A stretch of 64,000 bases of DNA, taken from positions 372,001 through 436,000 of the forward strand of contig NZ_BMQC01000002.1 in the NCBI RefSeq assembly GCF_014647915.1, read 5' to 3'. The notes under the pieces are model-generated. The model was not told the origin of the DNA. It worked only from the letters and a program-made list of their open reading frames with translations, and did not search any database. Positions within the stretch are counted from its first letter, which is position 1. Each line of letters begins with the position of its first letter. Shown here piece after piece: positions 4,877 through 20,412 of the stretch. Made by a program: the position numbers and the translations under genes. Source of the DNA: Pilimelia terevasa. GTDB taxonomy: Bacteria; Actinomycetota; Actinomycetes; Mycobacteriales; Micromonosporaceae.

Positions 4877-5424
4877 CGCACGTCCCCGCCGGGGTTCGCC
4901 GATCTCGACAGAATGAACAGCAGGTCGGACAACCGGTTGAGATACTTTGCCGGCAGCGTGCCGGTCCGCTCCGGGTCGGCCTCCAGCAGGAGCCACGCGC
5001 TGCGCTCGGCCCGGCGGGCGACCGTCCGGGCGACGTGCAGCAGGGCGGCGCCGGGGGAGCCGCCGGGCAGGACGAAGGAGTCGAGCGCCGGCAGCGGCTC
5101 GTTGAACTGGTCGCACCACGCCTCCAGGCGGGTGACGTACTCCTCGGTGACCCGCAGCGGGGGGTACCCGGGGTCGGGGGTGATGGGGTTGCACAGGTCC
5201 GCGCCGACGTCGAAGAGGTCGTTCTGCACGGTGGTGAGCACCGCCGCGACCGACGGGTCCAGGCCGCCCAGCGCGAGCGCCACGCCGAGCGCGGCGTTGC
5301 ACTCGTCCACGTCCGCGTACGCGCCGATCCGCGGGTCGGTCTTGGCCACCTTGTCGTTGTTGCCGAGCCGCGTCGTCCCCGCGTCGCCGGCCCGCGTGTA
5401 GATCCGGGTGAGGTGAACTGCCAT
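4852..5424 (-). CDS. Cob(I)alamin adenosyltransferase (PduO type)
   Basis: The enzyme adenosylates cob(I)alamin with ATP to make coenzyme B12. The 190-residue product opens with [20 protein letters not shown], the PduO-type ATP-binding sequence, and contains [47 protein letters not shown] and a final [13 protein letters not shown] helix, all characteristic. Its start ATG at 5424 lies 7 bases after a TAGGCT hexamer (5437-5432, minus strand), which suggests a leaderless mRNA. It can supply cofactor to the B12-dependent mutase at 32174. It is divergent from murA. Confidence 0.95.
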
Positions 5425-5431
5425 GCCGTCC

Positions 5432-5437
5432 AGCCTA
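5432..5437 (-). promoter_or_regulatory. Leaderless -10 box of the adenosyltransferase gene
   Basis: TAGGCT on the minus strand with 7 bases before the ATG at 5424 fits an actinobacterial -10 element (TAnnnT) whose transcript would start at or near the start codon. Confidence 0.5.
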
Positions 5438-5503
5438 CGGGCGCCGACCCGCCGCCCGCCCGGCCCGTCGTTGACCCTCGCCGGCCCCGCCGCGGACCCT
5501 ACG

Positions 5504-6796
5504 ATGGCCGACGTGGACGTGATCCGGGTCGCCGGGGCCGCCCGGCTCGCCGGGGAGGTCGCGGTCGTCGGCGCGAAGAACTCCGCCCTCAAGCTGATGG
5601 CGGCCGCATTGCTGGCGCCGGGCCGGACGGTCCTGACCAACGTCCCCCGGATCACCGACATCGCGATCATGGCGGAGGTGCTGCGGCGGATCGGCTGCGG
5701 CGTGGCCTTCGGCCCGGGCGAGGTGGCCGTCGACGTGCCCGAGGCGCTCGCGGCGGAGGCCGACTACGACCTCGTCCGCCGGCTGCGGGCCTCCATCTGC
5801 GTCCTGGGCCCGCTGCTGGCCCGGCGCGGGCTGGCCCGCGTCGCGCACCCCGGCGGCGACGCGATCGGCTCGCGGGGCCTGGACATGCACATCGCGGGCC
5901 TGGAGGCGATGGGCGCCCGGGTGTCCGGGGCGCACGGCTTCGTGATCGCCGAGCGCGGCCACCGGCTGCGCGGCGCCAAGATCCGGCTGGACTTCCCGAG
6001 CGTCGGCGCCACGGAGAACCTGCTGATGGCGGCGGTCCTCGCCGACGGCGAGACGGTCATCGACAACGCCGCCCGGGAGCCGGAGATCGTCGACCTGTGC
6101 GCGATGCTCACCGGCATGGGCGCCGCCATCGCGGGCGCGGGCGGGTCGACCCTGCACGTGACCGGCGTCGAGGGCCTGCGGCCGGTCCGGCACGCCACCG
6201 TCGGCGACCGGATCGTCGCCGGCACGTGGGCCTTCGGCGCGGTGATGACCTACGGCGACGTGACGGTGACCGGCGTCGACCCGCAGTGCCTGGCCGTCGC
6301 GCTGGACAAGCTGGTGGACGCCGGTGCGATGGTCGAGACGCGCGGCGCGGCGGGGTTCCGGGTGCGGATGGACGGCCGGCCGCGGGCGGTCGACGTCGCC
6401 ACCCTGCCGTACCCGGGGTTCGCCACCGACCTGCTGCCGATGGCGATCGGGCTGGCGGCGGTGGCCGAGGGCGCCTCGCTGATCACCGAGAACATCTTCG
6501 ACGGCCGGTTCATGTTCATCAACGAGATGGCGCGGCTCGGCGCGGCGGTGCGCACCGACGGGCACCACGCCGTCGTGCGCGGCCTGCCCGCGCTGTCCGG
6601 GGCGCCGGTGCGGGCGACCGACATCCGGGCCGGGGCCGGGCTGGTGATCGCCGCGCTGACCGCCGAGGGGGAGACGACGGTCTCGCACGCGCACCACATC
6701 GACCGCGGGTACCCCGACTTCGTCGCGCAGCTCCGGCACCTGGGCGCGCCGGTCAGCCGGGCCGCCGCGCCGGCCGAGCCGTCGTTCGGCTTCTGA
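5504..6796 (+). CDS. murA: UDP-N-acetylglucosamine 1-carboxyvinyltransferase
   Basis: MurA transfers enolpyruvate from PEP to UDP-GlcNAc, the first committed step of peptidoglycan synthesis, in the cytoplasm. The product is 430 residues from ATG 5504. It shows [15 protein letters not shown] (binding Lys and Asn), [14 protein letters not shown], the active-site loop [12 protein letters not shown] and [14 protein letters not shown]. In the loop the usual catalytic Cys (Cys115 in E. coli) is replaced by Asp119, codon 5858-5860. The same change is known in mycobacterial MurA, where it gives intrinsic fosfomycin resistance. GTG 5513 is a possible alternative start. A hairpin at 6811-6832 follows. 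Confidence 0.96.
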
Positions 6797-6810
6797 GTCC
6801 GGCCGGGCGC

Positions 6811-6832
6811 CCCGGCGGCGCCGGCCGCCGGG
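6811..6832. terminator. Hairpin after murA
   Basis: Bases 6811-6819 pair perfectly with 6824-6832 around a 4-base loop, 14 bases after the murA stop. A TAGGGT hexamer at 6833-6838 follows at once and may be the -10 box of the next gene. Confidence 0.6.
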
Positions 6833-6876
6833 TAGGGTCGCGGCATCGGTACTGATCGGTCGGAAGGGGTACGCGG

Positions 6877-7725
6877 GTGACGGGTCGGCTGGCGGTCGTG
6901 GGCGCGGGGCTGATGGGCTCCGGCATCGCACAGGTGGCGGCGGCGTCGGGGTGGCAGGTGACCCTGCGCGACATCGACGTCGCGGCGGTGCAGCGGGGCC
7001 TGGACGGCATCCGCGCGTCGCTGGGCAGGTTCGCGGCCAAGGGGAAGATCAGCGAGGCGGACGCCGAGGCGGCGCTCGGCCGGATCGCCCCGACGACCGA
7101 CCTGGACGCGGCCGCGGAGGCCGACATCGTGGTCGAGGCGGTGTTCGAGAAGATCGAGATCAAGCACGAGGTCTTCCGTACCCTCGACAAGATCTGCCGC
7201 GACGGCGCGGTCCTGGCCACGAACACCTCGGCGATCCCGGTCACCCAGATCGCCGCGGTGACCGGGCGCCCCGAGGCCGTGGTGGGCACGCACTTCTTCT
7301 CGCCGGTGCCGATGATGCAGCTCTGCGAGCTGGTCCGCGGCTTCAAGACCAGCGACGAGACCCTGGCGGCGGCCAGGGCGTTCGCCGAGGGCGTGGGCAA
7401 GACCTGCATCGTCGTCCAGCGCGACATCGCCGGCTTCGTGACCACCCGGCTGATCTGCGCGCTGGTGATGGAGGCCGTCACGCTGGTGGAGACCGGCGTC
7501 GTGTCGGCCGAGGACCTGGACACCGCCTGCAAGCTGGGCTTCGGCCACGTCATGGGCCCGCTGGCGACCTGCGACCTGACCGGCACCGACATCCTGCTGA
7601 ACGCCGCGAAGAACATCTACGCCGACACGGCCGACGAGAAGTTCTTCCCGCCGGAGCTGCTCCAGCGGATGGTCGCCGCGGGCGACCTGGGCCGCAAGTC
7701 GGGCCGCGGCTTCTACGACCACTGA
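6877..7725 (+). CDS. 3-hydroxybutyryl-CoA dehydrogenase
   Basis: The enzyme interconverts acetoacetyl-CoA and 3-hydroxybutyryl-CoA with NAD(P). The 282-residue single-module protein starts at GTG 6877, preceded by GGAAGGGG. It has the Rossmann motif VVGAGLMGSGIAQVAA, then DIVVEAVFEKIEIK, NTSAIPVTQIA, the catalytic GTHFFSPVPMMQLCELV with its His and Glu, and RDIAGFVTTRL at the start of the C-terminal dimerisation domain. The length is normal for FadB2/Hbd proteins. It stands alone between murA and a cyclic-di-GMP gene, with a TAGGGT hexamer at 6833-6838 upstream. Related enzymes in the window are the tandem dehydrogenase at 16240 and the thiolase at 28320. Confidence 0.93.
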   Translation: MTGRLAVVGAGLMGSGIAQVAAASGWQVTLRDIDVAAVQRGLDGIRASLGRFAAKGKISEADAEAALGRIAPTTDLDAAAEADIVVEAVFEKIEIKHEVFRTLDKICRDGAVLATNTSAIPVTQIAAVTGRPEAVVGTHFFSPVPMMQLCELVRGFKTSDETLAAARAFAEGVGKTCIVVQRDIAGFVTTRLICALVMEAVTLVETGVVSAEDLDTACKLGFGHVMGPLATCDLTGTDILLNAAKNIYADTADEKFFPPELLQRMVAAGDLGRKSGRGFYDH

Positions 7726-7728
7726 CCC

Positions 7729-7745
7729 CGCGGGGCGGCCCCGCG
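7729..7745. terminator. Short GC hairpin after the dehydrogenase gene
   Basis: Bases 7729-7735 pair with 7739-7745 around a 3-base loop just after the stop at 7725. Confidence 0.45.
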
Positions 7746-7848
7746 CCGCTCCCGGGGACACCGACGGACAACCTGCGCCGCGGTCTTAGCTACGCCGCCC
7801 CCGGGCCGATGGGACCGGGGTCAGGTCCCGGCGTGTCTGTGAGGTCTT

Positions 7849-9024
7849 GTGGGTAGGCAGCGGACGGCGGCGGGGGAGCAGGTCGCGGAGCTGCTGCTGA
7901 CCGCCCGGCGCTCGCTCGGCCTCAGCGTGGCCTTCCTCAGCCGCCTCGACGACGACCTCCAGCACCTGGAGGTCGTCGAGTCCTCCGTGCCGCTGCTGTT
8001 CCGCGAGGGCGTCACCCAGCCCCGGGCCACCACGTTCTGCCAGGCGGTCCTGGACCGCAGGCTGCCCGCCGTCATGGCCGACGTGCGCCAGCACCCGACC
8101 GCCATGCGGCTGCCGGCCGCCCGGATGCCGCGGATCCGCAGCTTCGTCAGCGTCCCCGTCACCCTCTCCGACGGCAGCCTGTACGGCACCTTCTGCGCCG
8201 CCGGGCTCACCTCGGACAAGGACCTCACCGCCCGCGACGAGGCGCTGATGAACGTGCTGGCCGCCGCCGCGGCCGTCGTGGTCGAGCCGGAGGTCCGCGA
8301 GGCGGGGCGGCGGGCCGAGATCGACGCCCGGCTGGACGAGGTCGTCGGGGCCGGCGGGCCGACCGTCCTGCTCCAGCCGATCGTCGCCCTGCCCGGCGGC
8401 GTGCGGGTCGGGGCCGAGGCGCTCAGCCGGTTCCCCGCGGCCTGGCAGGCGCCGCCGGACGCCTGCTTCGCCCAGGCGCACAGCGTCGACCGCGGCGCCG
8501 AGTTGGAGCTGGCCGCCCTGCGCGGCGCGGCGGCCCACCTGGACGCGGTCGCCGGGTACGTGTCGATGAACCTGTCCCCGGGCGTCCTGCTGCACCCCGA
8601 CGGCGCCGCGCTGCTGGCCACCCTGCCGCTGGACCGGGTCGTGCTGGAGCTGTCCGAGCACGACCCGGTGGCCGACTACGAGGCGCTGACCAAGGTCCTC
8701 GCGCCACTGCGCGCGGGCGGGATGCGGCTGGCCGTCGACGACGTCGGCGCGGGCTTCGCCTCCATGCGGCACATCGTGCTGACCGCCCCGGACCTGCTGA
8801 AGCTGGACCGCAGCATCGTCGACGGGATCCACGCCGACCAGGTGCTGACCACGCTGGTCGGCTCGCTGGTCACGTTCGGGCACGGCTGCGGCGCCGCCGT
8901 CGTGGCCGAGGGCGTGGAGACCGCCGAGGACGCCGCCGCCCTGCACGCCCTCGGCGTCGACTACGCCCAGGGCTGGCTCTACGGCCGCCCCGGCCCGCCG
9001 GAGGCGCTCACCGCCGTCGGCTGA
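7849..9024 (+). CDS. GAF-EAL protein, probable cyclic-di-GMP phosphodiesterase
   Basis: EAL domains hydrolyse cyclic-di-GMP. The 391-residue protein has an N-terminal GAF-like sensor (about residues 10-150, with FVSVPVTLSDGSLYGTFC) and a C-terminal EAL domain. Catalytic signatures are kept: GAEALSRF for the EAL box, the metal-binding Asn in MNLSP, ELSEHD, VDDVGAGF, LLKLDRSI and VVAEGVET. There is no GGDEF domain. The start GTG 7849 is followed at once by a basic sequence. It converges on the ABC permease gene with a 6-base gap. Enzyme activity is likely; the signal sensed by GAF is unknown. Confidence 0.88.
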   Translation: MGRQRTAAGEQVAELLLTARRSLGLSVAFLSRLDDDLQHLEVVESSVPLLFREGVTQPRATTFCQAVLDRRLPAVMADVRQHPTAMRLPAARMPRIRSFVSVPVTLSDGSLYGTFCAAGLTSDKDLTARDEALMNVLAAAAAVVVEPEVREAGRRAEIDARLDEVVGAGGPTVLLQPIVALPGGVRVGAEALSRFPAAWQAPPDACFAQAHSVDRGAELELAALRGAAAHLDAVAGYVSMNLSPGVLLHPDGAALLATLPLDRVVLELSEHDPVADYEALTKVLAPLRAGGMRLAVDDVGAGFASMRHIVLTAPDLLKLDRSIVDGIHADQVLTTLVGSLVTFGHGCGAAVVAEGVETAEDAAALHALGVDYAQGWLYGRPGPPEALTAVG

Positions 9025-9030
9025 GCCGGC

Positions 9031-9816
9031 TCACCGGTCGAGCGACCAGCGGAACGTCCGCAGGCACAGCGCCAGCCCGACGACGCACCAGGCGCCGAGC
9101 ACGAGCGCCACCCGCCCCAGCTCCCACGACCCGGCCGGCTCCAGCGCGGCGAACGAGTCCGGCAGGAACACCGCCCGCAGCCCCTGGCACATCCACTTGA
9201 GCGGGAACACCGCCGCCACCTGCTGCATCCACTCGGGCAGGCGGGTGAACTCGACGAACACGCCCGAGGTGAACTGGAGGACCAGCGCCACCGGGGTCAC
9301 CACGGCGGTGGCGCCGCGGGCGCTGCGCGGTACCGAGGAGAACGCGATCCCGCACAGCGTGCAGGCGGTGACGCCGAGGACCGACACCCAGGCCAGCGTC
9401 CACCAGTGGCCGGGCGCGGCCGGCAGCCGCAGGCCGAAGAACAGCACCGCGACCGCGACCAGCAGCAGCGTCTCGGCGGCGGCGATCACGGCGACGAGCA
9501 CGACTTTGCCGGCGAAGTACGCCCACGGCGGCATCGGCGTGCCGCGCAGCCGCTTGAGGACGCCGCGCTCGCGCTCGATCGGGATCTGGATCGCCAGCGC
9601 CTGGAAGCCCACCGTCATCAGGCCGGTGGCGATCATGCCGCTGACGAAGTACTGGGTGAAGGTCACCCCGGGCGCCAGGTCCCAGTCGAAGATCGACGAG
9701 AAGATCAGGATCATGATGACCGGGAAGGCCATCGTGAACACGACCGACTCCCGGCTGCGCAGGAACTGGGTCAGCTCCAGCCGGCCGCGCCGCCAGCTCA
9801 GGTCCAGGGCGTTCAC
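9031..9816 (-). CDS. ABC-2 type transporter permease
   Basis: This is the membrane half of an ABC exporter, probably for a drug, lipid or antibiotic. The 261-residue protein has about six hydrophobic segments, including FTMAFPVIMILIFSSIF, FVSGMIATGLMTVGF and VVLVAVIAAAETLLLVAVAVLFF, and the ABC-2 sequence ERERGVLKRLRGTPMPPW. Its ATG at 9816 overlaps the stop of the ATPase gene by 4 bases, so the two are translationally coupled. The substrate cannot be told from sequence. Confidence 0.9.
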   Translation of the reverse strand: MNALDLSWRRGRLELTQFLRSRESVVFTMAFPVIMILIFSSIFDWDLAPGVTFTQYFVSGMIATGLMTVGFQALAIQIPIERERGVLKRLRGTPMPPWAYFAGKVVLVAVIAAAETLLLVAVAVLFFGLRLPAAPGHWWTLAWVSVLGVTACTLCGIAFSSVPRSARGATAVVTPVALVLQFTSGVFVEFTRLPEWMQQVAAVFPLKWMCQGLRAVFLPDSFAALEPAGSWELGRVALVLGAWCVVGLALCLRTFRWSLDR

Positions 9817-10667
9817 GCGGTGGCTCCGATCATCCGCAGGTAGGTGTCCTCCAGGCTGGGCCGGCTCACCGTCAGGCCGGGCACCTCGCCGCCGTACGCC
9901 GCGGCCAGCTCGGCGACCAGCGCCGCCGGGGTGTGCGTCTCGCGCCGCCGGGCGCCCTCCGCCGGGTCCCGCCAGGCCACCACGGCCGGCGCGTCCCGCC
10001 GGCCGCCCAGGTCGGCCGGTGCGGCCACCTCCACGATCCGGCCCGCGGCGATGACGGCCACCCGGTCGGCGAGCGCCTCGGCCTCGTCCAGGTAGTGGGT
10101 GGTGAGCAGGATCGTCGTACCGGCACCGGCCAGCCCCCGGATCAGCTCCCAGAACTCCCGCCGGGCCTGCGGGTCGAAGCCGGTGGTCGGCTCGTCCAGG
10201 AACAGCAGCTCCGGCCGGCCGACGATGCCCAGTGCCACGTCCAGCCGCCGCTTCTGCCCGCCGGACAGGGTCCGGGTCCGGCGCCGGCCGCTGTCGGCGA
10301 GACCGACCCGGGCGACGACCTCGGCGGGGTCCTGCGCGCGCGGGTACAGGCCGGCGAAGTGGCCGACGACCTCGGCCACGGTCAGGTCGTCGAACTCGCC
10401 GGTGCTCTGCAGGACGATGCCCAGCCGGGCCCGCCAGGCGGCACCGGCGGTGGCCGGGTCCGCCCCGAGGACCCGTACCTGCCCGGCGTCGCGGCGGCGG
10501 TACCCCTCCAGGATCTCCACCGTCGTGGTCTTGCCCGCGCCGTTCGGACCGAGCAGCGCCACGACCTCGCCGGTGCGCACCTGGAGGTCGACGCCGTCGA
10601 CGGCGACGCGGTCGCCGTAGGACCTGCGCAGGCCGCGCACCGCGACGGCCAGCCCATCTGTATTCAT
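9813..10667 (-). CDS. ABC transporter ATP-binding protein (ABC-2 exporter)
   Basis: This is the nucleotide-binding half of the exporter with the permease at 9031. The 284-residue product from ATG 10667 has Walker A LLGPNGAGKTTT, Q-loop region VLQSTGEFDDLTV, signature LSGGQKRRLDVA, Walker B LLFLDEPTTGFD and switch His in LLTTHYLDEA. The C-terminal 60 residues resemble the regulatory extension of DrrA/CcmA-type ATPases. No strong ribosome site precedes the ATG. A much longer open frame reaching 11048 lies over the divergent promoter region and is not believed. Confidence 0.93.
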   Translation of the reverse strand: MNTDGLAVAVRGLRRSYGDRVAVDGVDLQVRTGEVVALLGPNGAGKTTTVEILEGYRRRDAGQVRVLGADPATAGAAWRARLGIVLQSTGEFDDLTVAEVVGHFAGLYPRAQDPAEVVARVGLADSGRRRTRTLSGGQKRRLDVALGIVGRPELLFLDEPTTGFDPQARREFWELIRGLAGAGTTILLTTHYLDEAEALADRVAVIAAGRIVEVAAPADLGGRRDAPAVVAWRDPAEGARRRETHTPAALVAELAAAYGGEVPGLTVSRPSLEDTYLRMIGATA

Positions 10668-10993
10668 TCGCCCACTATCGCCTGCCGACGCCCACCCGGT
10701 GCGCGCGGACCCCCGCCCTATCCCCGTCCCGGGTGCGCTGACCTGCGCGAATGCCTGTTGCCCTGGCGGCGGCTTGCCTTTACGGTGGGCATCGAAACCA
10801 GTAGATCCGACGGTCCGCGGCCCGCCGCGGGTGGGCGCCACGGACGAGCCACCCCGCTCGTGCGGTACGTCGCACACGGGGTGCACCGCGCCGCGGGCAC
10901 CGGGACCGTCACCACCGCCAGCCGGCCCTGCCGACCGTGCTGGCGGCGGCTCATGTCGCGCGTCGGGGCGACGCGACGACGAAAGGGACCCCT
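10668..10993. other. Divergent intergenic region with a promoter for the Pls-like gene
   Basis: This 326-base region separates the ABC ATPase (minus) from the synthetase-like gene (plus). It holds a good sigma-70-type promoter on the plus strand, TTGCCC at 10758-10763, a 17-base spacer and TACGGT at 10781-10786, giving a leader of about 200 bases. No convincing coding frame or known riboswitch was recognised in that leader. Confidence 0.5.
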
Positions 10994-13900
10994 GTGACCT
11001 CCAGCGATGACGCGCGCCTCCGCGCGGTTTTCTCCGCCACCGCCGCACGGACGCCGGACGCGATCGCCGTCGCCTGCGAGGACCGGTACGTCACGTTCGC
11101 TGAGCTGGCCGACCTCACCGACCGGTTCGCCCGGCGGCTGCGCCAGCACGGCGTCCGCCGCGGCGACGTGGTCGCGGTCCACCTGACCCGCTCCGAACTG
11201 CCGGTCATCGCCGTGCTGGCGTGCCACTCGCTGGCCGTCACCTACGTGCCGATCGACCCTGGCTGTCCGGTCGAGCGGATAGCGCAGATCATCGACGAGC
11301 TGGGCGTGGGCTGGTGCGTGACCGAGCCGGCCCTCGGCGGGCGCGTCGCGCCGCTGCTGGCCGCCCGCCGCACCATCGCCATCCGCCACGACTCGGCGTT
11401 CTTCACCGTCGGCGTGCGCTCCGATCACCGCGGCCCCATCGACGACGCCGAGCCCGACGACCCGGCGTACGTGACGTACACCCGCGACGCCGGCGGCGCC
11501 CCCAAGGCCGTCGTCGCCGAGCACCGGCACGTCGCGGCGTACCTGGCCGGGTTCCGGGAGATCTGCCCGGTCGGCCCCGGGGACCGGGTGTACCAGGGCC
11601 ACGCGCTGAGCTTCGACGGCAGCATCGCCGAGATCTGGTCGGCGCTGGCCGGTGGCGCGACGCTGGTGGTACCCGCGCCGGACGCCCCGCGCACCGGCGC
11701 CGCGCTGACCGACCACCTCGCCGACCTGCGCATCACCCACCTGGCGACCACCCCGGAGACGCTCGCGGACCTGGACCCGGCGGCGCTACCGGAGCTGCGC
11801 GCCGTGGTGCTGTCCGGCGGCGCCTGCCCGCCGGAGCTGGTCGCCCGCTGGAGCGGCGACGGCGTCGTGCTGCTCAACGTGTACGGGCCGGCCGAGACCA
11901 CCGTGCACGCGCTGGTCAAGCGGTGCGCGCCCGGCGCGCCGGTCACGCTGGGGCGGGCACTGCCCGGGTACGAGGTCAGCGTGGTCGACGCGGGCCTGCA
12001 CCCGGTGCGCGACGGGCACACCGGCGAGCTGCTGCTCGGCGGGCCGGCGCTGGCCGCCGGGTACGTGGGCGACCCGGAGCTGACCCGGGAACGGTTCGTC
12101 ACCCTCGACGGCGGCCGGCGGGCCTTCCGCACCGGCGACCGGGTGCGGCAGGTCGGCGACGAACTGGAGTACCGCGGCCGCCAGCCCGCGCCTGCCGCCC
12201 CGCACCCTCCGCGCCAGCGCGGGGACGGGCCGCCCCCCGTACCGCCGGCCGGCCCGCCGTCGGGGCGGGCTCCGGTCCCCGGGCGCCCGGCCGCGGCGGA
12301 GTCCGGCGGCCGGCCCGCGCGCACCGCCCCGCCCGAGCCGACGCCGCCGGTGCGCCCGCCCGCGCCGCGCACCGCCCGCGAGGTCTTCCGGGACACCTCC
12401 GCCGACGCCCGCGCGACCAGCCGCAGGCGCCAACTGCTCGGCCTGTATCTGGTGGCCGCCATGGTCGCGGTACCGGCCGCCCTCGTCGTCACCGCCGCCG
12501 CGGCGTGGGTGACCGGCGGCACCGGTCCCGCCGGCCTGCTCGGCCGGCTGCTGCTGGTCGCCGTTCTGGCCTGGCCCGCGCTGCTCGGGGTGACGCTCGC
12601 CGCGAAGTGGCTGCTGATCGGCCGGTACGCCGAGGGCGAGTACCCGCTGTGGGGCGAGTTCCACCGCCGCTGGTGGCTGGTGGGCCGGCTGTACGCGCTC
12701 AGCGGCGTGGGCCTGCTCGCCGGTACCCCCGCCCTGCCGGTGTACCTGCGCCTGCTCGGCGCGCGGATCGGCGAGCGGGTCCACCTGGAGACGGTCGCGT
12801 TCGGCGCGTTCGACCTGCTCCGCATCGGCGCCGACAGCAGTGTCGGCCCCGGCGCCGACCTGCGCGGCTGGGCCGTCGCGGACGGCGTGCTGCGGGTCGG
12901 CCGGATCGCGGTCGGCGACCGCTGCTTCGTCGGCGCCCGCGCCGCCCTCGGCCCGGACGTCGTCCTCGGCGACGACTGCGCGCTGGACGACCAGTCGGCG
13001 CTCGCCGCCGACAGCCAGATCCCGGCCGGCGCGCAGCGGCGCGGGGCGCCCGCGGTACCGGCGCGGGTGCCGCTGCCCGCCCCCGCGGCGCCGGCCAGCC
13101 GGCACCGCCAGCTCGGCTACGGCGTGGCGCACGTGCTGGGCGCGTACCTGGTCATTTTCCTGGCGGCGCTGCCGCCGCTGCTCGCCCTGCTGCTGTACGG
13201 CGCGCTCGCGGAACGGCTCGGCGGCTGGTCGGCGGCCGGGGCGGTGGTCGCCGCGCTGCCGGTCCTGACGCCGTTCTCGGTGCTGCTGCTGGCCGTGGCG
13301 CGGCGGCGCCTGCTCGGCGAGTTCTACGTCGGCACCTACCCCGTGCACAGCCCGGCCTACCTGCGCAAGTGGCTCGCCGACCAGCTCCTGCGGGTGGTCC
13401 GGGTGCCGCTGACGCCGGTGTTCGGCACGGCGTTCACCCGGCCGGTGCTGTCCCTGTTCGGCGCCCAGATCGGCCCGGGCGCGGAGGTCGAGCGCCCGCA
13501 CCTGGTCTCGCCCGAGGCCCTGAACGTCGCCGCCGACGCGCACCTCGCCGCCGACGCGGTCGTCGCCCCCCGCCGGGTGCACCGCGGCGCCTTCACCGTG
13601 GCGGCCAGCCGGATCGGCCGGCGCGGCGAGGTCGGCGACGGCGCCGTCGTCCGCGGCGGCGTCAGCGTCGGCGACGACTCCACGCTCGCGCCGGGCACGC
13701 TGGCCCCCGACGACAGCCAGCGGTCCGCCGCCGGCAGCCGGTGGGCGGGGTCGCCGGCCGCGCCGGTCGGGCGCAGGCCCGCGCCGCGGGCGCAGCGGTA
13801 CCGACCGAGCCGGCGGGAGCGGGCCGAGCGGCTGCTGTACGACGCCGCGCGGGTCCTCGTACCGTACGGCCTGGCCCTGCTCGGCGCGGTGCTGTTCGCC

Positions 13901-14632
13901 TACCCGACGTACCTGCTGTGGTCGGCCCTCGGCGCCTGGGCCGCGGTACCGGTCGCCCCGCTGCTCGGGCTGGCGGCCGGCGCGGCGGTCGTGGCCGCGG
14001 TCGCCGCGCTCAAGCGGCTGGTGCTCGGCCGGGTGCGGGCGCTGCCGCGGGCCGCCTGGTCGCCGTACGCCCGCCTGTACGGCGTCGTCTCGGCCGCCTA
14101 CGACACGCTCGCCGCGCCGCTGCTGTCGGCGCTGGTCGGCACGCCCTTCCTGGCCGGGCCGCTGCGCGCGTTCGGGGTGCGGGTCGGCCCGCACGCCTAC
14201 CTCGGGACGACCCGCATCGCCGGGTTCGACCTGGTGCGGATCGGCGCGTTCGCGGCCCTGGGCGCGGACGCGGTAGTCAAGGCGGACCTGCGGACCGGGC
14301 AGCGGTTCCTCACGGGCACCGTGACCGTGGCGGACGAGGCGTCGGTCGGCCAGGGCGCGGTGCTGCTGCCGGACTCCGCGGTCGGCGCCGCCGCCGGTCT
14401 GGCGCCGCTGGCGGTCCTGCCGGCCGGCGCGATCCTGCCGCCGGGCGAGCGGGCGCACGGCATTCCGTGCCGGCTGATCCCCGCCGCGTTGCCCGCGGCG
14501 CGGCCGCCGCGCCGGGACGCCGCCGCCGGCCGCGGGGCCGGGGATCCGCGGCCCGACGACGACGGCGACGCCGCGGCGGGCTGGCTGGCGGCCGGGCCGG
14601 TGGGCACGGGCGCCCGGATCCGCCGGGCCTGA
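10994..14632 (+). CDS. Pls/PosA-like membrane synthetase with incomplete adenylation domain and no carrier domain
   Basis: The 1212-residue product resembles the epsilon-polylysine synthetase family: an adenylation domain, then six membrane helices alternating with three soluble domains. GTG 10994 follows AAAGGG. Residues 1-395 are an NRPS adenylation core with recognisable A4 (FDGSIAEIW), A5 (NVYGPAETT), A6 (GELLLGGPALAAGYVG) and A7 (FRTGD). A3 is altered, TYTRDAGGAPKA in place of the Ser/Thr/Gly-rich loop. The sequence stops at YRGR, the beginning of A8; A8-A10 with the catalytic Lys, and the whole carrier domain, are absent. A Pro-rich linker (about 397-462) takes their place. Membrane pairs are at about 482-543, 707-776 and 954-1013. 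Hexapeptide-like C domains lie at about 589-673, 823-910 and 1061-1170. Family placement is likely; activity is doubtful. Confidence 0.8.
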   Translation: MTSSDDARLRAVFSATAARTPDAIAVACEDRYVTFAELADLTDRFARRLRQHGVRRGDVVAVHLTRSELPVIAVLACHSLAVTYVPIDPGCPVERIAQIIDELGVGWCVTEPALGGRVAPLLAARRTIAIRHDSAFFTVGVRSDHRGPIDDAEPDDPAYVTYTRDAGGAPKAVVAEHRHVAAYLAGFREICPVGPGDRVYQGHALSFDGSIAEIWSALAGGATLVVPAPDAPRTGAALTDHLADLRITHLATTPETLADLDPAALPELRAVVLSGGACPPELVARWSGDGVVLLNVYGPAETTVHALVKRCAPGAPVTLGRALPGYEVSVVDAGLHPVRDGHTGELLLGGPALAAGYVGDPELTRERFVTLDGGRRAFRTGDRVRQVGDELEYRGRQPAPAAPHPPRQRGDGPPPVPPAGPPSGRAPVPGRPAAAESGGRPARTAPPEPTPPVRPPAPRTAREVFRDTSADARATSRRRQLLGLYLVAAMVAVPAALVVTAAAAWVTGGTGPAGLLGRLLLVAVLAWPALLGVTLAAKWLLIGRYAEGEYPLWGEFHRRWWLVGRLYALSGVGLLAGTPALPVYLRLLGARIGERVHLETVAFGAFDLLRIGADSSVGPGADLRGWAVADGVLRVGRIAVGDRCFVGARAALGPDVVLGDDCALDDQSALAADSQIPAGAQRRGAPAVPARVPLPAPAAPASRHRQLGYGVAHVLGAYLVIFLAALPPLLALLLYGALAERLGGWSAAGAVVAALPVLTPFSVLLLAVARRRLLGEFYVGTYPVHSPAYLRKWLADQLLRVVRVPLTPVFGTAFTRPVLSLFGAQIGPGAEVERPHLVSPEALNVAADAHLAADAVVAPRRVHRGAFTVAASRIGRRGEVGDGAVVRGGVSVGDDSTLAPGTLAPDDSQRSAAGSRWAGSPAAPVGRRPAPRAQRYRPSRRERAERLLYDAARVLVPYGLALLGAVLFAYPTYLLWSALGAWAAVPVAPLLGLAAGAAVVAAVAALKRLVLGRVRALPRAAWSPYARLYGVVSAAYDTLAAPLLSALVGTPFLAGPLRAFGVRVGPHAYLGTTRIAGFDLVRIGAFAALGADAVVKADLRTGQRFLTGTVTVADEASVGQGAVLLPDSAVGAAAGLAPLAVLPAGAILPPGERAHGIPCRLIPAALPAARPPRRDAAAGRGAGDPRPDDDGDAAAGWLAAGPVGTGARIRRA

Positions 14633-14634
14633 CC

Positions 14635-14657
14635 GGCTGACCGCCGCGCGGTCAGCC
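14635..14657. terminator. Bidirectional terminator between convergent genes
   Basis: Bases 14635-14644 pair perfectly with 14648-14657 around a 3-base loop. The hairpin starts just after the stop of the plus-strand synthetase-like gene and covers the stop codon of the minus-strand DUF4126 gene, so it can end both transcripts. Confidence 0.65.
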
Positions 14658-15299
14658 CTGTTCCGCGCTGCCGCCGGCCCGCTGCGCGCCACCGCCCGGC
14701 GGCGGGGCGGTTTCCGGTGCGGCCGCGCGCGCCCGGCGTCGCCGCAGGACCGTCCATGCGCCGTACCCCACCGCGCCCAGCAGGACGAGCACCAGCGCCG
14801 GGAGCAGCAGCGCCGCCACCGACAGCGAGGCGCTGGTGACGTCCTCGGCGGTACTGACCACGGGCGCGCCGACGCCGCCGGTCATGGTGTTCACCACCGG
14901 CCGGGCCAGTGCCTTGGCCCCGTGGACGGCCAGCGCGACCGCCAGCCCGCAGGCCACGGGAACCCACTGGTGCGAGGTGAAGAACTCGCCCGGGTCGGTG
15001 ACCGCCGCGGTCTGCGCCCCGGAGCCGGCGCCGAACACCAGGCCGCCCGCGGTCGGCCGGACGACGGTCTGCAGGATGTCGTTGACGTGGTCGACCGCCG
15101 GGATCTTGTCGGCGACGAACTCCACCGCGAGCAGCAGCGCCAGGATGCCCAGCGTCCAGCCGCCGGTCAGCCACTGCCACGACTCCGGCAGCGCGACGAG
15201 GTCGCTGTACCGCGCGAGCAGGCCGAGCAGCAGCAGCGGGATGTACGCGTTGAGCCCGGCCGCCGCCGCGAGCCCGATCCCGGTCACCAGTTCCCACAC
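14652..15299 (-). CDS. DUF4126 membrane protein
   Basis: The 215-residue protein is mostly hydrophobic with about five membrane segments. It begins MWELVTGIGLAAAAGLNAYIPLLLLGLL, contains FVADKIPAVDHVNDILQTVVRPTAGG and ends in a basic, Pro/Gly-rich cytoplasmic tail. These are the hallmarks of DUF4126, a widespread family of unknown function. The conserved DK-PAVDH-ND block suggests a functional site at the membrane. It is transcribed alone, divergent from nucS. Confidence 0.88.
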   Translation of the reverse strand: MWELVTGIGLAAAAGLNAYIPLLLLGLLARYSDLVALPESWQWLTGGWTLGILALLLAVEFVADKIPAVDHVNDILQTVVRPTAGGLVFGAGSGAQTAAVTDPGEFFTSHQWVPVACGLAVALAVHGAKALARPVVNTMTGGVGAPVVSTAEDVTSASLSVAALLLPALVLVLLGAVGYGAWTVLRRRRARAAAPETAPPPGGGAQRAGGSAEQG

Positions 15300-15417
15300 G
15301 CCTCCAGCATCCCCGCCCCGCGCGGCGCCGACACCGCGAACGCCCGCGCTTTCCGCCCCCCGCCGCGGCGCGGCCGGAGCGCCGGAGGGCGCCGGGCGGC
15401 CGGCGGCGCCGGGTCGG

Positions 15418-15423
15418 TAGGGT
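15418..15423 (+). promoter_or_regulatory. Leaderless -10 box of nucS
   Basis: TAGGGT ends 6 bases before the nucS ATG. The spacing puts the transcript start at the A of ATG. Confidence 0.55.
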
Positions 15424-15429
15424 CGCGGG

Positions 15430-16089
15430 ATGCGGTTGGTGGTCGCGCAGTGCCAGGTGGACTACGTCGGACGGCTCTCGGCACACCTGCCGCTGGCCAC
15501 CCGGCTGATCATGGTCAAGGCCGACGGGTCGGTGTCGATCCACGCCGACGACCGCGCGTACAAGCCGCTGAACTGGATGAGCCCGCCCTGCAAGCTCACC
15601 ACCGACGGCGCCGTGTGGACGGTCGCCAACCCCAAGGGCGAGCGCCTGCTGATCACGATCGCCGAGGTGCTGCACGACAGCGCGCACGAGCTGGGCGTGG
15701 ACCCGGGCCTGGTCAAGGACGGCGTCGAGGCGCACCTGCAGGAGCTGCTGGCCGCCTCGCCCGAGGTGCTCGGCGCGGGCGTGACGCTGGTCCGGCGCGA
15801 GTACATGACCGCGATCGGCCCGGTGGACCTGCTGTGCCGCGACGCGGCGGGCGGCGCGGTCGCCGTGGAGATCAAGCGCCGCGGCGAGATCGACGGCGTG
15901 GAGCAGCTCACCCGGTACCTCGCCCTGCTCAACCGCGACCCGCTGCTCGCCCCGGTCGCCGGGGTCTTCGCCGCCCAGGAGATCAAGCCGCAGGCGCGGG
16001 TCCTGGCCGAGGACCGGGGCATCCGCTGCGCCGTCCTGGACTACGACGCTCTGCGCGGCTTGGCGCGCGACGAGCTGACCCTCTTCTGA
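15430..16089 (+). CDS. nucS: Mismatch-specific endonuclease NucS (EndoMS)
   Basis: NucS cuts both strands at mismatches and replaces MutS/MutL repair in most actinobacteria. The 219-residue product has the N-terminal DNA-binding part ([32 protein letters not shown]) and the RecB-like nuclease core with GPVDLLCRD and [21 protein letters not shown], which holds the acidic residues and Lys of the active site. It ends in DELTLF, a good match to the beta-clamp-binding motif. It seems to be transcribed from a leaderless promoter at 15418. Confidence 0.97.
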
Positions 16090-16239
16090 CGACCTCTCCC
16101 GAGCCGGAGCGGTGGTAGTAGAGGAAGTGGCGCCGCGGCGGGAGATGCCGGTGCTCAGCGACTAGCGGCCGCCGCCGGCATGGGAGGATGCCGGCGGGGT
16201 ACGCCGGCCGCGGCGTACGCGAGCCAGCAGGAGGCGGGC

Positions 16240-17868
16240 GTGAGCCGTACGTTCCAGCGAGTCGGCGTGATCGGGCTGGGCACCATGGGTGCCGGGATCG
16301 CGGAGGTCTTCGCCCGCAACGGCGCCGAGGTCACCGCCGTCGAGATCACCGACGAGGCGCTGGAGCGCGGCCGGCGGACGCTGACCGCGTCGGTCGACAA
16401 GGCGGTCGCCCGCGGCCGGCTCGACGCCGCCGACCGCGACGCCGTACTCGGCCGGGTCGCCTTCGCCGTCGGCCTGCCCGCGCTCGCCGAGGCGGACCTC
16501 GTGGTGGAGGCGGTACCGGAGCGGCTGGAGATCAAGCGGTCCCTGTTCGCGGAGCTGGACCGGGTGTGCAAGCCGGACACGATCCTGGCCACCAACACCT
16601 CCTCGCTGAGCGTCACCGACATCGCGGTCGCCACCCACCGCCCCGACCGGGTCGTCGGCGTGCACTTCTTCAACCCCGCGCCGGTGATGAAGCTCGTCGA
16701 GATCGTCCGCACCGTCGTCACGGCCCCCGACGTCGCCGAGGACCTGGCCGCGCTGTGCACCTGGCTGGGCAAGACGCCGGTGACGGTCGGCGACCGGGCC
16801 GGCTTCGTGGCCAACCACCTGCTGTTCGGGTACCTGAACCAGGCCGTCGGCATGCTGGAGGCCGGCCACGCCACCCGGGACGACATCGACGCCGCGATGC
16901 GGCACGGCTGCGCGCTGCCGATGGGGCCGTTCGCCCTGCTGGACCTCATCGGACTGGACACCTCGTACGAGATTTTGCGCACCATGTACGCCCGCGGGGG
17001 CCGCAGCCGCCGGCACGCCCCGGCGCCGCTGCTGGCCGAGATGGTCACCGCCGGCCTGCTGGGCCGCAAGACGGGCCGCGGGTTCTACACGTACGAGGGC
17101 GGCAGGGCCGTCGCCGACGCGGCCGCGCCGGCCCCGGCCGCCGAGGCGCCGCGCCGCGTGGGGGTCGTCGGCGCCGGACCGGTCGCCGGCATCCTGGCCA
17201 CCCGGCTGCGCGAGACCGGCCGCACGGTCGTGACCGCGGCCGAGGACCTGTCCGCGCTCGCCGACGTCGACCTCGTGGTCGAGATGTCGGGCGCCGACGC
17301 CGACGCCGTGCGGGCGCGCTTCGCCGAGCTGGGCCGGATCTGCCGGCCGGGCGCGGTCCTGGCCGCGGCCGGCGACGCCCTGCCGGTGATCGCGTGCGCG
17401 GCGGCCAGCGGCCGGCCGGAGGACGTCGTGGGGCTCCGGCTGCCGGCCCCGGCCGTGAAGTTGATCGAGATCGTCCCGACCGTCCGGTCTGGTGCGCCGG
17501 CGCTCGCCGCCGCCCGCGCGCTGGCGGCCAGCCTGGACAGCGTCGCCGTCGAGTGCCGCGACCGGGCCGGGGCGATCGTGCACGCGCTGCTGATGCCGTA
17601 CCTCAACGACGCGGTGGCCCTGGTCGACTCCGGGTACGCCGACGCCGACGCGGTCGACGCCGCGATGACGAAGGGCTGCGGGTACCCGGTCGGCCCGATC
17701 GCCTTCCTCGACCACGTGGGCCTGGACCGGGCCGCGGCGACCCTGCGCCGGATGTGTGCCGAGACGGGCGAGCCGTCGTTCACCCCGGCGCCGCTGCTGG
17801 AGCAGATGGTCACGGCCGGGCGGACCGGTCAGCGGGCGGGTCAGGGTTTCCGTACCCACCGCCGGTGA
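16240..17868 (+). CDS. Tandem 3-hydroxyacyl-CoA dehydrogenase, second half degenerate
   Basis: The first half (about residues 1-280 of 542) is a complete NAD-dependent 3-hydroxyacyl-CoA dehydrogenase: VGVIGLGTMGAGIAEVFA, DLVVEAVPERLEIK, NTSSLSVTDIA, the catalytic VGVHFFNPAPVMKLVEIV and GDRAGFVANHLLFGYLNQA. The second half (about 300-542) repeats the fold, with a weaker Rossmann turn (GVVGAGPVAG) and VGLRLPAPAVKLIEIV, where the catalytic His position holds Arg. It is therefore probably a structural or regulatory copy. The GTG at 16240 has AGGAGG at 16229-16234; an in-frame ATG at 16180 lacks such a site. The stop overlaps the GTG of the next gene. A role in beta-oxidation or phenylacetate-type pathways is likely but not provable here. 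Confidence 0.88.
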   Translation: MSRTFQRVGVIGLGTMGAGIAEVFARNGAEVTAVEITDEALERGRRTLTASVDKAVARGRLDAADRDAVLGRVAFAVGLPALAEADLVVEAVPERLEIKRSLFAELDRVCKPDTILATNTSSLSVTDIAVATHRPDRVVGVHFFNPAPVMKLVEIVRTVVTAPDVAEDLAALCTWLGKTPVTVGDRAGFVANHLLFGYLNQAVGMLEAGHATRDDIDAAMRHGCALPMGPFALLDLIGLDTSYEILRTMYARGGRSRRHAPAPLLAEMVTAGLLGRKTGRGFYTYEGGRAVADAAAPAPAAEAPRRVGVVGAGPVAGILATRLRETGRTVVTAAEDLSALADVDLVVEMSGADADAVRARFAELGRICRPGAVLAAAGDALPVIACAAASGRPEDVVGLRLPAPAVKLIEIVPTVRSGAPALAAARALAASLDSVAVECRDRAGAIVHALLMPYLNDAVALVDSGYADADAVDAAMTKGCGYPVGPIAFLDHVGLDRAAATLRRMCAETGEPSFTPAPLLEQMVTAGRTGQRAGQGFRTHRR

Positions 17869-18161
17869 GTCCCCGGCGCAACCGGCGTGACGACCCGGCG
17901 CCGCCCGGCGGCCCGGACCGGGCCTGGCCGGGGGCGGCCACGGTCGAGACCTGGGCCGGCGGGCGGTGGCACGTGCGCACCGTCCCGGCGCCGTCGGCGG
18001 CCAAGGCGTACCGCTGCCCCGGCTGCGACCACGAGATCGCCCCGGGCACCCCGCACGTGGTGGCGTGGCCGGCGGACGACGGGGGCGACCTCGCCGACCG
18101 CCGCCACTGGCACAGCGGCTGCTGGCGGGCCCGGTCCCGGCGCCGGCCGCCCCGCTCCTAG
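17865..18161 (+). CDS. Small Cys/His-rich (zinc-ribbon-like) protein
   Basis: This 98-residue protein is coupled to the dehydrogenase gene by a GTGA overlap (GTG 17865-17867, preceding TGA 17866-17868). Its centre reads AYRCPGCDHEIAPGTPHVVAWP, followed by DRRHWHSGCWRAR. Cys51, Cys54, His81 or His83 and Cys86 could bind one zinc. Both ends are rich in Arg and Pro. Short proteins of this pattern are common in actinobacteria, often labelled ATP/GTP-binding without evidence. I cannot assign a function; RNA or DNA binding would fit the charge. Confidence 0.78.
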   Translation: MSPRRNRRDDPAPPGGPDRAWPGAATVETWAGGRWHVRTVPAPSAAKAYRCPGCDHEIAPGTPHVVAWPADDGGDLADRRHWHSGCWRARSRRRPPRS

Positions 18162-18166
18162 ACATT

Positions 18167-18221
18167 GATCAAGGGATTTCCCGCGCATTCATCACGGATT
18201 AACGTCGGAAATTCCTTGATC
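18167..18221. repeat. Long inverted repeat before the second LCP gene
   Basis: Bases 18167-18181 and 18207-18221 form a 15-bp inverted repeat with one mismatch and a 25-base spacer. It starts 5 bases after the stop at 18161 and ends 74 bases before the LCP start. It may be a terminator for the upstream genes or an operator for the LCP promoter (a TAGCGT hexamer lies at 18257-18262). Confidence 0.55.
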
Positions 18222-18295
18222 GCGTTGTCGGGGGTGGCGGTCCCGACGGCGAGGTCGTAGCGTGCGGAGTCGGGTTTCCTGGGGAGGAACGGAAC

Positions 18296-19567
18296 GTGGC
18301 GGGTGCGCGGCGGCTCAGCAGGGTGGCAGAGGATCTTCCGGCGGCACCGGCCGCGTCGACGGCGCAGGGCGGCCCCGGGGTGTACGGCAGCGCGGCGGCG
18401 CGCGGCGGTCCCGCCGCGACCGGCGCCGCGGCCGCGCGGGGTGTCCCGGCCGCGGCCGGGACACCGGCCAAGAGTCCGCTCTGGGCCCGCCTGTGCGTCG
18501 CCGGCGGGGTCGCGCTGGCCGTGCTCGCCGGCGGCAGCCTGACGGCGACGACCGTCCTGGCCAGCCGCGTCGACAACGCGGTCGGCAAGGGAGACCTGTT
18601 CGGCGACGGCGCCGAGGCGGCCGAGGGCGCGAAGGACCTGCGCGGCCCGATGAACATCCTGCTCGCCGGCATCGACCCACGCGAGTGGGAGGACAATCCC
18701 GACCTGCGGGCCGACTCGGTCCTGGTGATGCACGTACCGGCGAGCCTGGACCGCGCCGTCCTGTTCTCGCTGCCCCGCGACCTGCTGGTGGACATCCCGG
18801 CCTTCCCGCCGGCCCGGTACCCCGGCGGCAGGGACAAGCTGACCCACGCCATGTACTACGGCTCCCGGGTCGACGGCGACGGCAGGAAGGATCCGGTCCG
18901 CGGCTTCGAGCTGCTGTCCCGGGCGGTCAGCAACGCCACGGGGATCGCCCGGTTCGACGCGGGCGCGATCGTGACGTTCAACGGGTTCAAGCGGATCGTC
19001 GACGCCCTCGGCGGCGTGCGCATGTACGTCGACATGGACGTCGCCTCGATCCACATGCGCCCCGACGGCAAGCACCGCGCGCCCAACCCGGGCGGCGGCG
19101 AGGGCGCCCTGGCCTTCAAGGGCCCCCGCAAGCAGTACCGCAAGGGCAACCACCAGCTCTCCGGCTGGGAGGCCCTGGACTACACGCGACAGCGCTACAT
19201 CGAGGGCGGCGACTACGCCCGCCAGCGCCACCAGCAGCAATTCCTGCGGGCGATGGTCGGCCAGGCGCTCAGCCGGGACGTCGTCACCAACCCCGGCAAG
19301 CTGGACGCGGTCCTCCAGGCCGCCGGCAAGACGCTGACCTTCAGCGGCCGCGGCCACAGCGTCACCGACTTCGCGTTCGTCCTGCGCAACATCCGCTCGG
19401 ACAACATCACCATGGTCAAGCTGACCGGCGGCTCGGTGCTGACCGGCGGGGCGTACCAGGGCGAGGCGCTGGACGCGGCTGCCAAGCAGTTTCTGGCCGC
19501 GCTGCGCAGCGACACGACCGAGCAGTTCCTCGTCTCCCATCCCGAAATGATCAACCGGGACCGGTAG
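18296..19567 (+). CDS. LCP (LytR-CpsA-Psr) family cell-wall glycopolymer ligase, second copy
   Basis: This 423-residue paralogue of the protein at 2019 should attach lipid-linked polymers to peptidoglycan. GTG 18296 has an excellent ribosome site, GGGGAGGAA at 18281-18289. It adds an Ala/Pro-rich cytoplasmic N-terminus of about 60 residues before the single membrane helix (about 65-87). The catalytic part repeats the same blocks: NILLAGIDPREW, LRADSVLVMHVP, FSLPRDLLVDIP, RIVDALGGVRMYVD and TRQRYIEGGDYARQRHQQQ. Identity to the first copy is high across the domain, pointing to a lineage duplication. An alpha/beta hydrolase gene follows after 68 bases. Confidence 0.94.
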   Translation: MAGARRLSRVAEDLPAAPAASTAQGGPGVYGSAAARGGPAATGAAAARGVPAAAGTPAKSPLWARLCVAGGVALAVLAGGSLTATTVLASRVDNAVGKGDLFGDGAEAAEGAKDLRGPMNILLAGIDPREWEDNPDLRADSVLVMHVPASLDRAVLFSLPRDLLVDIPAFPPARYPGGRDKLTHAMYYGSRVDGDGRKDPVRGFELLSRAVSNATGIARFDAGAIVTFNGFKRIVDALGGVRMYVDMDVASIHMRPDGKHRAPNPGGGEGALAFKGPRKQYRKGNHQLSGWEALDYTRQRYIEGGDYARQRHQQQFLRAMVGQALSRDVVTNPGKLDAVLQAAGKTLTFSGRGHSVTDFAFVLRNIRSDNITMVKLTGGSVLTGGAYQGEALDAAAKQFLAALRSDTTEQFLVSHPEMINRDR

Positions 19568-19635
19568 CCGCGGTCTGGATCACGTTTCCGCGGGGTGCGC
19601 CCGCGCCCGCGGCCGGCGCGGCGCACCATGGGGGA

Positions 19636-20412
19636 GTGAGCACCCCGATCCGCGCCAACTCGATCCTGCCGGCCACCCGCGAGGCACTGGCCCTGGAGAC
19701 CGCCGACGGCCTGCGCCTGGTCGGCGAGCTGGCCCTGCCGCCCGCCGGCCGGACCCCGGTGGCGACGCTGATCTGCCTGCACCCGCTGCCCACCCACGGC
19801 GGGATGATGGACAGCCACGTCCTGCGCAAGGCGGCCTGGCGGTTGCCGGCGCTCGCCGACGTCGCGGTTCTGCGGTTCAACACCCGCGGTACCGCGAGCG
19901 TCCAGGGGACCAGCGAGGGCGCCTTCGACGGCGGCGACGGCGAGCGGTTCGACGTGGCCGCGGCCATCGAGTACGCCGAGTTCGCGCAGTTGCCGTCCCG
20001 GTGGCTGCTCGGCTGGTCGTTCGGCACCGACCTGGCCCTGCGGCACGGCTGCGACCCCGCCGTCGCCGGTGCCGTCCTGCTCTCGCCGCCGCTGCGCTCC
20101 GCCACGGCCGCGGACCTGGCGCGCTGGGCGGTCAGCGGCAAGCCGCTGACCGCGCTGGTCCCCGAGCACGACGACTACCTGCGGCCGGACGAGGCGCGGC
20201 GGCGGTTCGCGGCCGTGCCGCAGGCCGAGGTGGTCGGGGTACCCGGGGCGAGGCACCTGTGGGTCGGCGACGCCGAGACGGTCCTGGACGCGGTCGTGGC
20301 CCGGGTCGCCCCGGGGCGCGGGCCGCTGCCGCGCGCCTGGGACGGCCCGATGGAGTACGGCGACGCCAGCGCCTACGCCGACCGGACGACCGCCGCCTTC
20401 GACACCGACTGA
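19636..20412 (+). CDS. Alpha/beta hydrolase
   Basis: The 258-residue protein has the fold of a serine hydrolase: LICLHPLPTHGGMMDS for the oxyanion-hole region, AVLRFNTRGT, the nucleophile elbow GWSFGTD with Ser, a later Glu/Asp in LVPEHDDYLRP and His in GARHLWVGD. No lid domain is evident, so it may be a small esterase or dienelactone-hydrolase-like enzyme. The start GTG 19636 immediately follows a run of G. Its 3' end overlaps the convergent histidine kinase gene by 40 bases. The substrate is unknown. Confidence 0.82.
   Translation: MSTPIRANSILPATREALALETADGLRLVGELALPPAGRTPVATLICLHPLPTHGGMMDSHVLRKAAWRLPALADVAVLRFNTRGTASVQGTSEGAFDGGDGERFDVAAAIEYAEFAQLPSRWLLGWSFGTDLALRHGCDPAVAGAVLLSPPLRSATAADLARWAVSGKPLTALVPEHDDYLRPDEARRRFAAVPQAEVVGVPGARHLWVGDAETVLDAVVARVAPGRGPLPRAWDGPMEYGDASAYADRTTAAFDTD

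Follow-up and report, generated by a model that had tools for sequence, protein, structure and literature searches.

A Pls-type paralogue of Pilimelia terevasa that lacks A8-A10 and the carrier domain is a probable pseudo-synthetase

Pls-type enzymes build lysine polymers that are antibiotic-like. As outlined in an excerpt of PMC8117764, Pls consists of an adenylation (A) domain, a thiolation domain, six transmembrane (TM) helices and three C domains, C1 to C3. For the delta-poly-L-ornithine synthetase PosA, passages of PMC10522769 report that mutants of Asp217 and of Glu221 are inactive, describe Glu221 as conserved throughout these synthetases, and relate that epsilon-poly-beta-lysine was reached through a lysine-2,3-aminomutase gene next to a Pls homologue; they also state that no structural information existed on the C1-C3 domain of such synthetases. 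In Pls-type synthetases it is C1-C3 that join amino acids and set chain length. Here we describe a Pls/PosA-type gene in a stretch of 64,000 nucleotides from Pilimelia terevasa (NCBI RefSeq assembly GCF_014647915.1, contig NZ_BMQC01000002.1, positions 372,001 to 436,000; "the window"). Its product lacks, as one block, the end of the A domain and the carrier domain. We propose, with a probability of about 0.6, that it is a catalytically dead Pls paralogue, a pseudo-synthetase whose reading frame is still open and partly constrained.

The window protein matches the epsilon-poly-L-lysine synthetase Pls (so named in PDB entry 7wew) over residues 9-396 and has the same architecture minus the missing block. 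Pfam AMP-binding covers residues 14-357 (E 1.6e-64) and the match to TIGR01733 ends at residue 397, which bears out an earlier note, made from the letters of the sequence, that had placed the end of the adenylation sequence at YRGR. The alignment departs from the full-length relatives directly behind YRGR, short of the A8 hinge Asp, and resumes past the carrier. Between the last residue of YRGR and residue 471 lie 74 residues, as against 193-225 in 38 relatives; the note had judged the space too short to hold the block. The deletion is in frame and removes a single block, from the hinge between A-core and A-sub to the end of the carrier, with limits at domain borders. We call near-invariant those alignment columns that are at least 95% conserved, with 38 other Pls-type proteins as the comparison set; the window protein matches 2 of the 21 such columns in the A8-carrier block. 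In place of the block stands a linker, which the note had put at about 65 residues and which measures 66, with GC contents of 0.92/0.86/0.94 at the three codon positions.

We ran the profile search that the note had suggested, and of its three profiles AMP-binding alone matched; in Pfam, even with E values up to 1 allowed, the window protein matched neither AMP-binding_C nor PP-binding. We also built a profile of the A8-carrier block from the relatives; run with filters off over six frames of 11900-12700, it reached 2.0 bits at best, and three controls scored 234-249. By tblastn, the block of L041, a full-length Pls of the same genome, gave a best E of 0.47. The protein thus has neither a complete A domain with the Lys of A8-A10 nor a carrier domain with the phosphopantetheine Ser, and the note was right that both residues are missing; no displaced copy was found in another frame. 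Nor was a diverged A10 or carrier, which would have told against the loss, found within residues 397-462 in any of the six frames.

The A-core that is left is itself altered. The A3 stretch, the phosphate loop, has changed from TSG-S/T-T/S-G to TRDAGG (S164R and G165D, two positions that do not vary among the 38 relatives). At position 212, Ala replaces a Glu. It corresponds to PosA Glu221 by spacing and by the family column, PosA itself not being in the direct alignment. The conserved Asp of PosA is kept here as Asp208, and Glu301 and Asp382 are also present; the diamino-acid pocket retains its Asp and has lost its Glu. Over the whole A-core, 42 of 55 near-invariant residues are kept (0.76), and in a leave-one-out comparison the lowest of the 38 relatives keeps 0.87. 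The losses in the A3 loop and of the substrate-binding Glu had not been spotted in the earlier note.

The membrane part matches TIGR02353, the Pls/PosA terminal domain, over residues 489-1158 (E 7.3e-111, model positions 11-694 of 695). Its 371.6 bits fall below the cut-off of 423.1, but the homology is clear from the E value. From a hydropathy scan together with a hexapeptide match, the protein has three pairs of membrane helices, six in all, set around three C regions; the scan also rises above threshold at residues 59-77 and 1130-1148. All 8 near-invariant residues of helix pair 1 and C1 are kept. In helix pair 2 and C2, 7 of 12 remain, where the lowest relative has 0.83, and in helix pair 3 and C3, 8 of 12 (0.67). 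The note's statement that the three membrane/C repeats look intact therefore holds for the six helices and C1 but not for C2 and C3. The C3 motif QNHLFEDR(V/I)FKS of the eight sister proteins described below has become KADLRTGQRFLT in the window protein (residues 1096-1107, nt 14279-14314), with 10 of 12 positions different, including H1098D and D1102G. Single-sequence structure prediction of the TM/C part gave a mean predicted local distance difference test score of 41.4, which is unusable. Two proteins of one genus (L102 and L103, from G361 and G363) are full-length, very divergent Pls-type proteins that score 366-386 bits against TIGR02353, also below the cut-off.

We searched for relatives with TIGR02353 or with an alignment of three TM/C parts, in 1595 genome scans (overlaps included) that sampled several groups. 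Among the matches listed, the nearest relatives are L041 (same genome, contig C3), L104 (G122), L145 (G452) and L161-L165. All eight are full-length, by alignment in every case and by Pfam for L041, L104, L145 and L163, and they share 44-48% identity with the window protein over the A-core and 37-41% over TM/C. In trees with all eight, the window protein stands outside and next to them (support 98 for the whole protein, 80 for the A-core, 99 for TM/C); with three of the eight, support is 83 for the A-core, 99 for TM/C and 97 for both together. Because the A-core and TM/C trees agree on its placement, we ruled out a chimera. Rather than a recent duplicate of L041, the gene is an old paralogue. 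Its whole-protein distance from the common ancestor is 1.06, close to the upper end of the range that the eight relatives span (0.55-1.10) but still inside it, which argues against long free drift.

A lysine-2,3-aminomutase-like gene adjoins seven of the eight sister Pls genes (L041, L104, L145, L161, L162, L164 and L165, from several genera; loci L041:1-4501, where it is cut by the contig start, L104:3630-9067 and L145:6078-11530). Two of these genes, which we tested, match KamA-family/AblA models at E 3e-44 or better, below the curated cut-offs, and have no Pfam match at 0.001. L163 has a Pls without an aminomutase gene within 16 kb, and the 64-kb window holds no lysine-2,3-aminomutase homologue. 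By analogy with the report in PMC10522769, the neighbouring aminomutase-like genes suggest that the sister clade probably consists of poly-beta-lysine synthetases. These putative synthetases share the A-core, membrane helices and three C regions with the window protein; unlike it, they have retained A8-A10, the carrier, an A3 loop, the Glu of position 212 and the motifs of C2 and C3. The genome has four Pls-type genes in 4.5 Mb (G000, contigs C9, C9, C3 and C2), three of them full.

The earlier note had proposed recurrence in several species as the mark of a real family. We therefore surveyed every fetched locus with a TM/C match above 200 bits (136 frames, 101 distinct genes). In 99 of the 101, the same frame carries upstream a match of more than 30 bits to the A8-carrier block or its carrier part. 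This leaves the window gene and a frameshifted Pls of G437, whose A-carrier part is just upstream in another frame (L147:6190-10045, with the A-carrier and TM/C parts in two frames); either decay or a sequencing error could account for the latter. No second example of outright loss appeared among the 101, the eight nearest relatives included, and the window gene is a singleton and not a demonstrated family. With the window protein as query, a contig scan found three distant adenylation domains only, plasmids gave partial matches only, none covering 80% of the query. Viral contigs, when scanned, yielded no relative. In titles and the beginnings of abstracts in the open-licence PMC literature on inactive adenylation domains, on pseudoenzymes among nonribosomal synthetases and on related synthetases, we found no description of such a protein. 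At L146:4458-9502 (G117), a split Pls consists of an 845-residue carrier-TM/C protein without an A domain beside an 850-residue frame with AMP-binding and carrier. Like the window protein, it has TM/C not fused to a full A domain; in G117, however, the carrier stays on the TM/C protein, and the adjoining gene has AMP-binding, AMP-binding_C (23.1 bits, cut-off 24.5) and a carrier.

With the A3 loop, the substrate Glu, the A10 Lys, the carrier Ser and the C2/C3 residues lost, synthesis looks dead. The window protein does not seem capable of any known step of polymer synthesis, and we infer that, unlike Pls, it makes no polymer. The note's view that peptide synthesis had been lost gains the changes at A3, at 212 and in C2/C3; its suggestion of a new acyl- or aminoacyl-transferase role is unsupported, because conserved C2/C3 residues are among those gone. 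What remains is an A-core, a flexible linker and a six-helix, three-repeat membrane domain. Continued use is favoured by the open frame, the kept C1 residues and helices, the fit of the block to domain borders and a whole-protein branch within the relatives' range. If so, the protein might still be made and might act in a non-catalytic way. The likeliest roles would be to bind polycations or to partner or regulate, in the membrane, a catalytic Pls of the same cell, which encodes three full ones; this suggestion is weaker than that of lost synthesis.

Several observations weigh against a constrained pseudo-synthetase. The block is missing outright in 1 of the 101 genes surveyed, with no orthologue found among them, and in the A-core tree alone the distance is 1.02, above the relatives' 0.44-0.87. 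The full-length L102 and L103 are as low in helix pair 3 and C3, so that the C3 total by itself is not diagnostic, and they fall below the window protein in helix pair 1 and C1, where they are the lowest relatives (0.80). The losses are not significantly clustered along the protein (p 0.19), and we infer a catalytic role for the lost C2/C3 residues from conservation only. Finally, simulated neutral drift at 0.1 substitutions per site costs about 20% of amino-acid identity, comparable to the overall loss here (22 of 87 near-invariant residues), and leaves no stop with a probability of 0.02-0.15, or in 8-42% at 0.05 per site, with indels not modelled in either case.

These simulations also lend some weight to a possible, though doubtful, alternative: that the gene was recently silenced and is decaying without function, its frame open by chance in GC-rich DNA. 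The lost residues and the singleton status would fit such decay, and the GC content at second codon positions (GC2) is 0.86 in the linker and 0.82 in the C-terminal tail, as expected of unconstrained GC-rich DNA. Codon-position GC is maintained in the gene outside linker and tail, and for the gene as a whole (counted from an upstream GTG at 10937) it is 0.82/0.58/0.97, inside the range of other window genes. Against decay stand 1212 codons without a stop and without a frameshift relative to the relatives, the complete set of near-invariant residues in helix pair 1 and C1, a missing block bounded by domain borders, a likely ribosome-binding site upstream of the GTG, and a tree distance within the range of the eight relatives. 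We dropped drift in the share of Gly, Ala, Arg and Pro residues (GARP) as a mark of relaxation, because the figure for L040, another Pls encoded in this genome, is comparable (0.469).

A more specific form of the pseudo-synthetase proposal is that the dead Pls pairs in the membrane with the cell's own catalytic poly-beta-lysine synthetase, tuning chain length or binding and shielding the polymer; we rate this as unlikely. If it were true, the protein would be the first non-catalytic subunit known to us in this family, which resembles nonribosomal peptide synthetases. More broadly, a paralogue that has kept C1 and the membrane frame and lost specific residues of C2 and C3 points to candidates for catalytic residues. 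Should the protein be made, its membrane domain would have a use without synthesis; if it is not, the gene would be an ordinary decaying duplicate.

It is improbable that the protein works in trans as an active synthetase or transferase and obtains carrier and A-sub from a partner such as the full paralogue on contig C3. Three full Pls proteins and 19 carrier matches in the genome could provide them, and the split Pls of G117 is a precedent. However, the A-core itself lacks the A3 loop and Glu at 212, conserved C2/C3 residues are gone, none of the carrier matches is on the window's contig (no search was aimed at stand-alone A-sub proteins), and the G117 split retains A-sub and carrier. That the Pls gene is normal and its deletion near 12180 an assembly or sequencing error, the latter raised by the note and either conceivable in a draft genome of 42 contigs, is scarcely credible and would not be sufficient alone, because an in-frame linker occupies the place of the block, substitutions at A3, 212, C2 and C3 point the same way, and the flanks match the neighbourhood in relatives.

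Table 1. Coordinates of the gene and its parts, in positions of the window
Feature	Position	Strand	Details
Whole gene, Pls/PosA-type	10994..14632	+	1212 aa; GTG start at 10994, stop at 14632; open frame
AAAGGG, likely ribosome-binding site	10982..10987	+	6 nt before GTG; motif read directly, role presumed
Adenylation core, residues 1-396, last residues YRGR	10994..12181	+	PF00501 14-357, TIGR01733 34-397
Degenerate A3 phosphate loop (AYVTYTRDAGGAPKA)	11465..11509	+	positions 164/165 are R/D; S/G in 38/38 relatives
Ala212 replacing Glu	11627..11629	+	Glu in 38/38 relatives; equivalent of PosA Glu221 (conserved Asp + 4)
Pro/Ala/Gly/Arg-rich linker, residues 397-462 (66 residues)	12182..12379	+	GARP 0.79, GC2 0.86; no A8-carrier remnant in six frames
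Membrane helix pair 1, residues 481-499 and 519-537	12434..12604	+	hydropathy scan
C1 region, hexapeptide (left-handed beta-helix type) repeats	12605..13132	+	PF00132 640-662; repeats spaced by 18 nt
Membrane helix pair 2, residues 714-732 and 750-768	13133..13297	+	hydropathy scan
C2 region	13298..13843	+	R820S, D853A, F879E, N882D, L897T at near-invariant positions
Membrane helix pair 3, residues 951-969 and 978-996	13844..13981	+	hydropathy scan
C3 region	13982..14548	+	Q1096K, H1098D, D1102G, S1140A at near-invariant positions

The genes around the window gene that we tested encode an ABC-2 transporter, a DUF4126 protein, NucS, a GAF-EAL protein and EPSP synthase, and the neighbourhood does not look like a biosynthetic cluster. 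Searches gave 59 NucS loci, and we compared the site with 20 of them. In many of the 20, all or part of the series EPSP synthase, 3-hydroxyacyl-CoA dehydrogenase, ATP-binding cassette (ABC) permease and ATPase, DUF4126, NucS is kept in this order, and the ABC genes occur together with DUF4126/NucS in nine (L167, L169, L170, L172, L174, L175, L180, L181 and L184). At E 1e-10, neither half of the window protein has a match in any of the 20 stretches, and most simply the gene would have entered the site in the lineage of the window. A light check for insertion by a mobile element found no tRNA at 5000-20000, and repeats at 10600-15400 showed no clear flanking pair. Two genes of the window, some 9 kb from each other, resemble 3-hydroxyacyl-CoA dehydrogenase genes: one at 6877-7725, recognized by its Pfam domains, and one at 16180-17868 (562 aa), named solely because the same genes of relatives match both.

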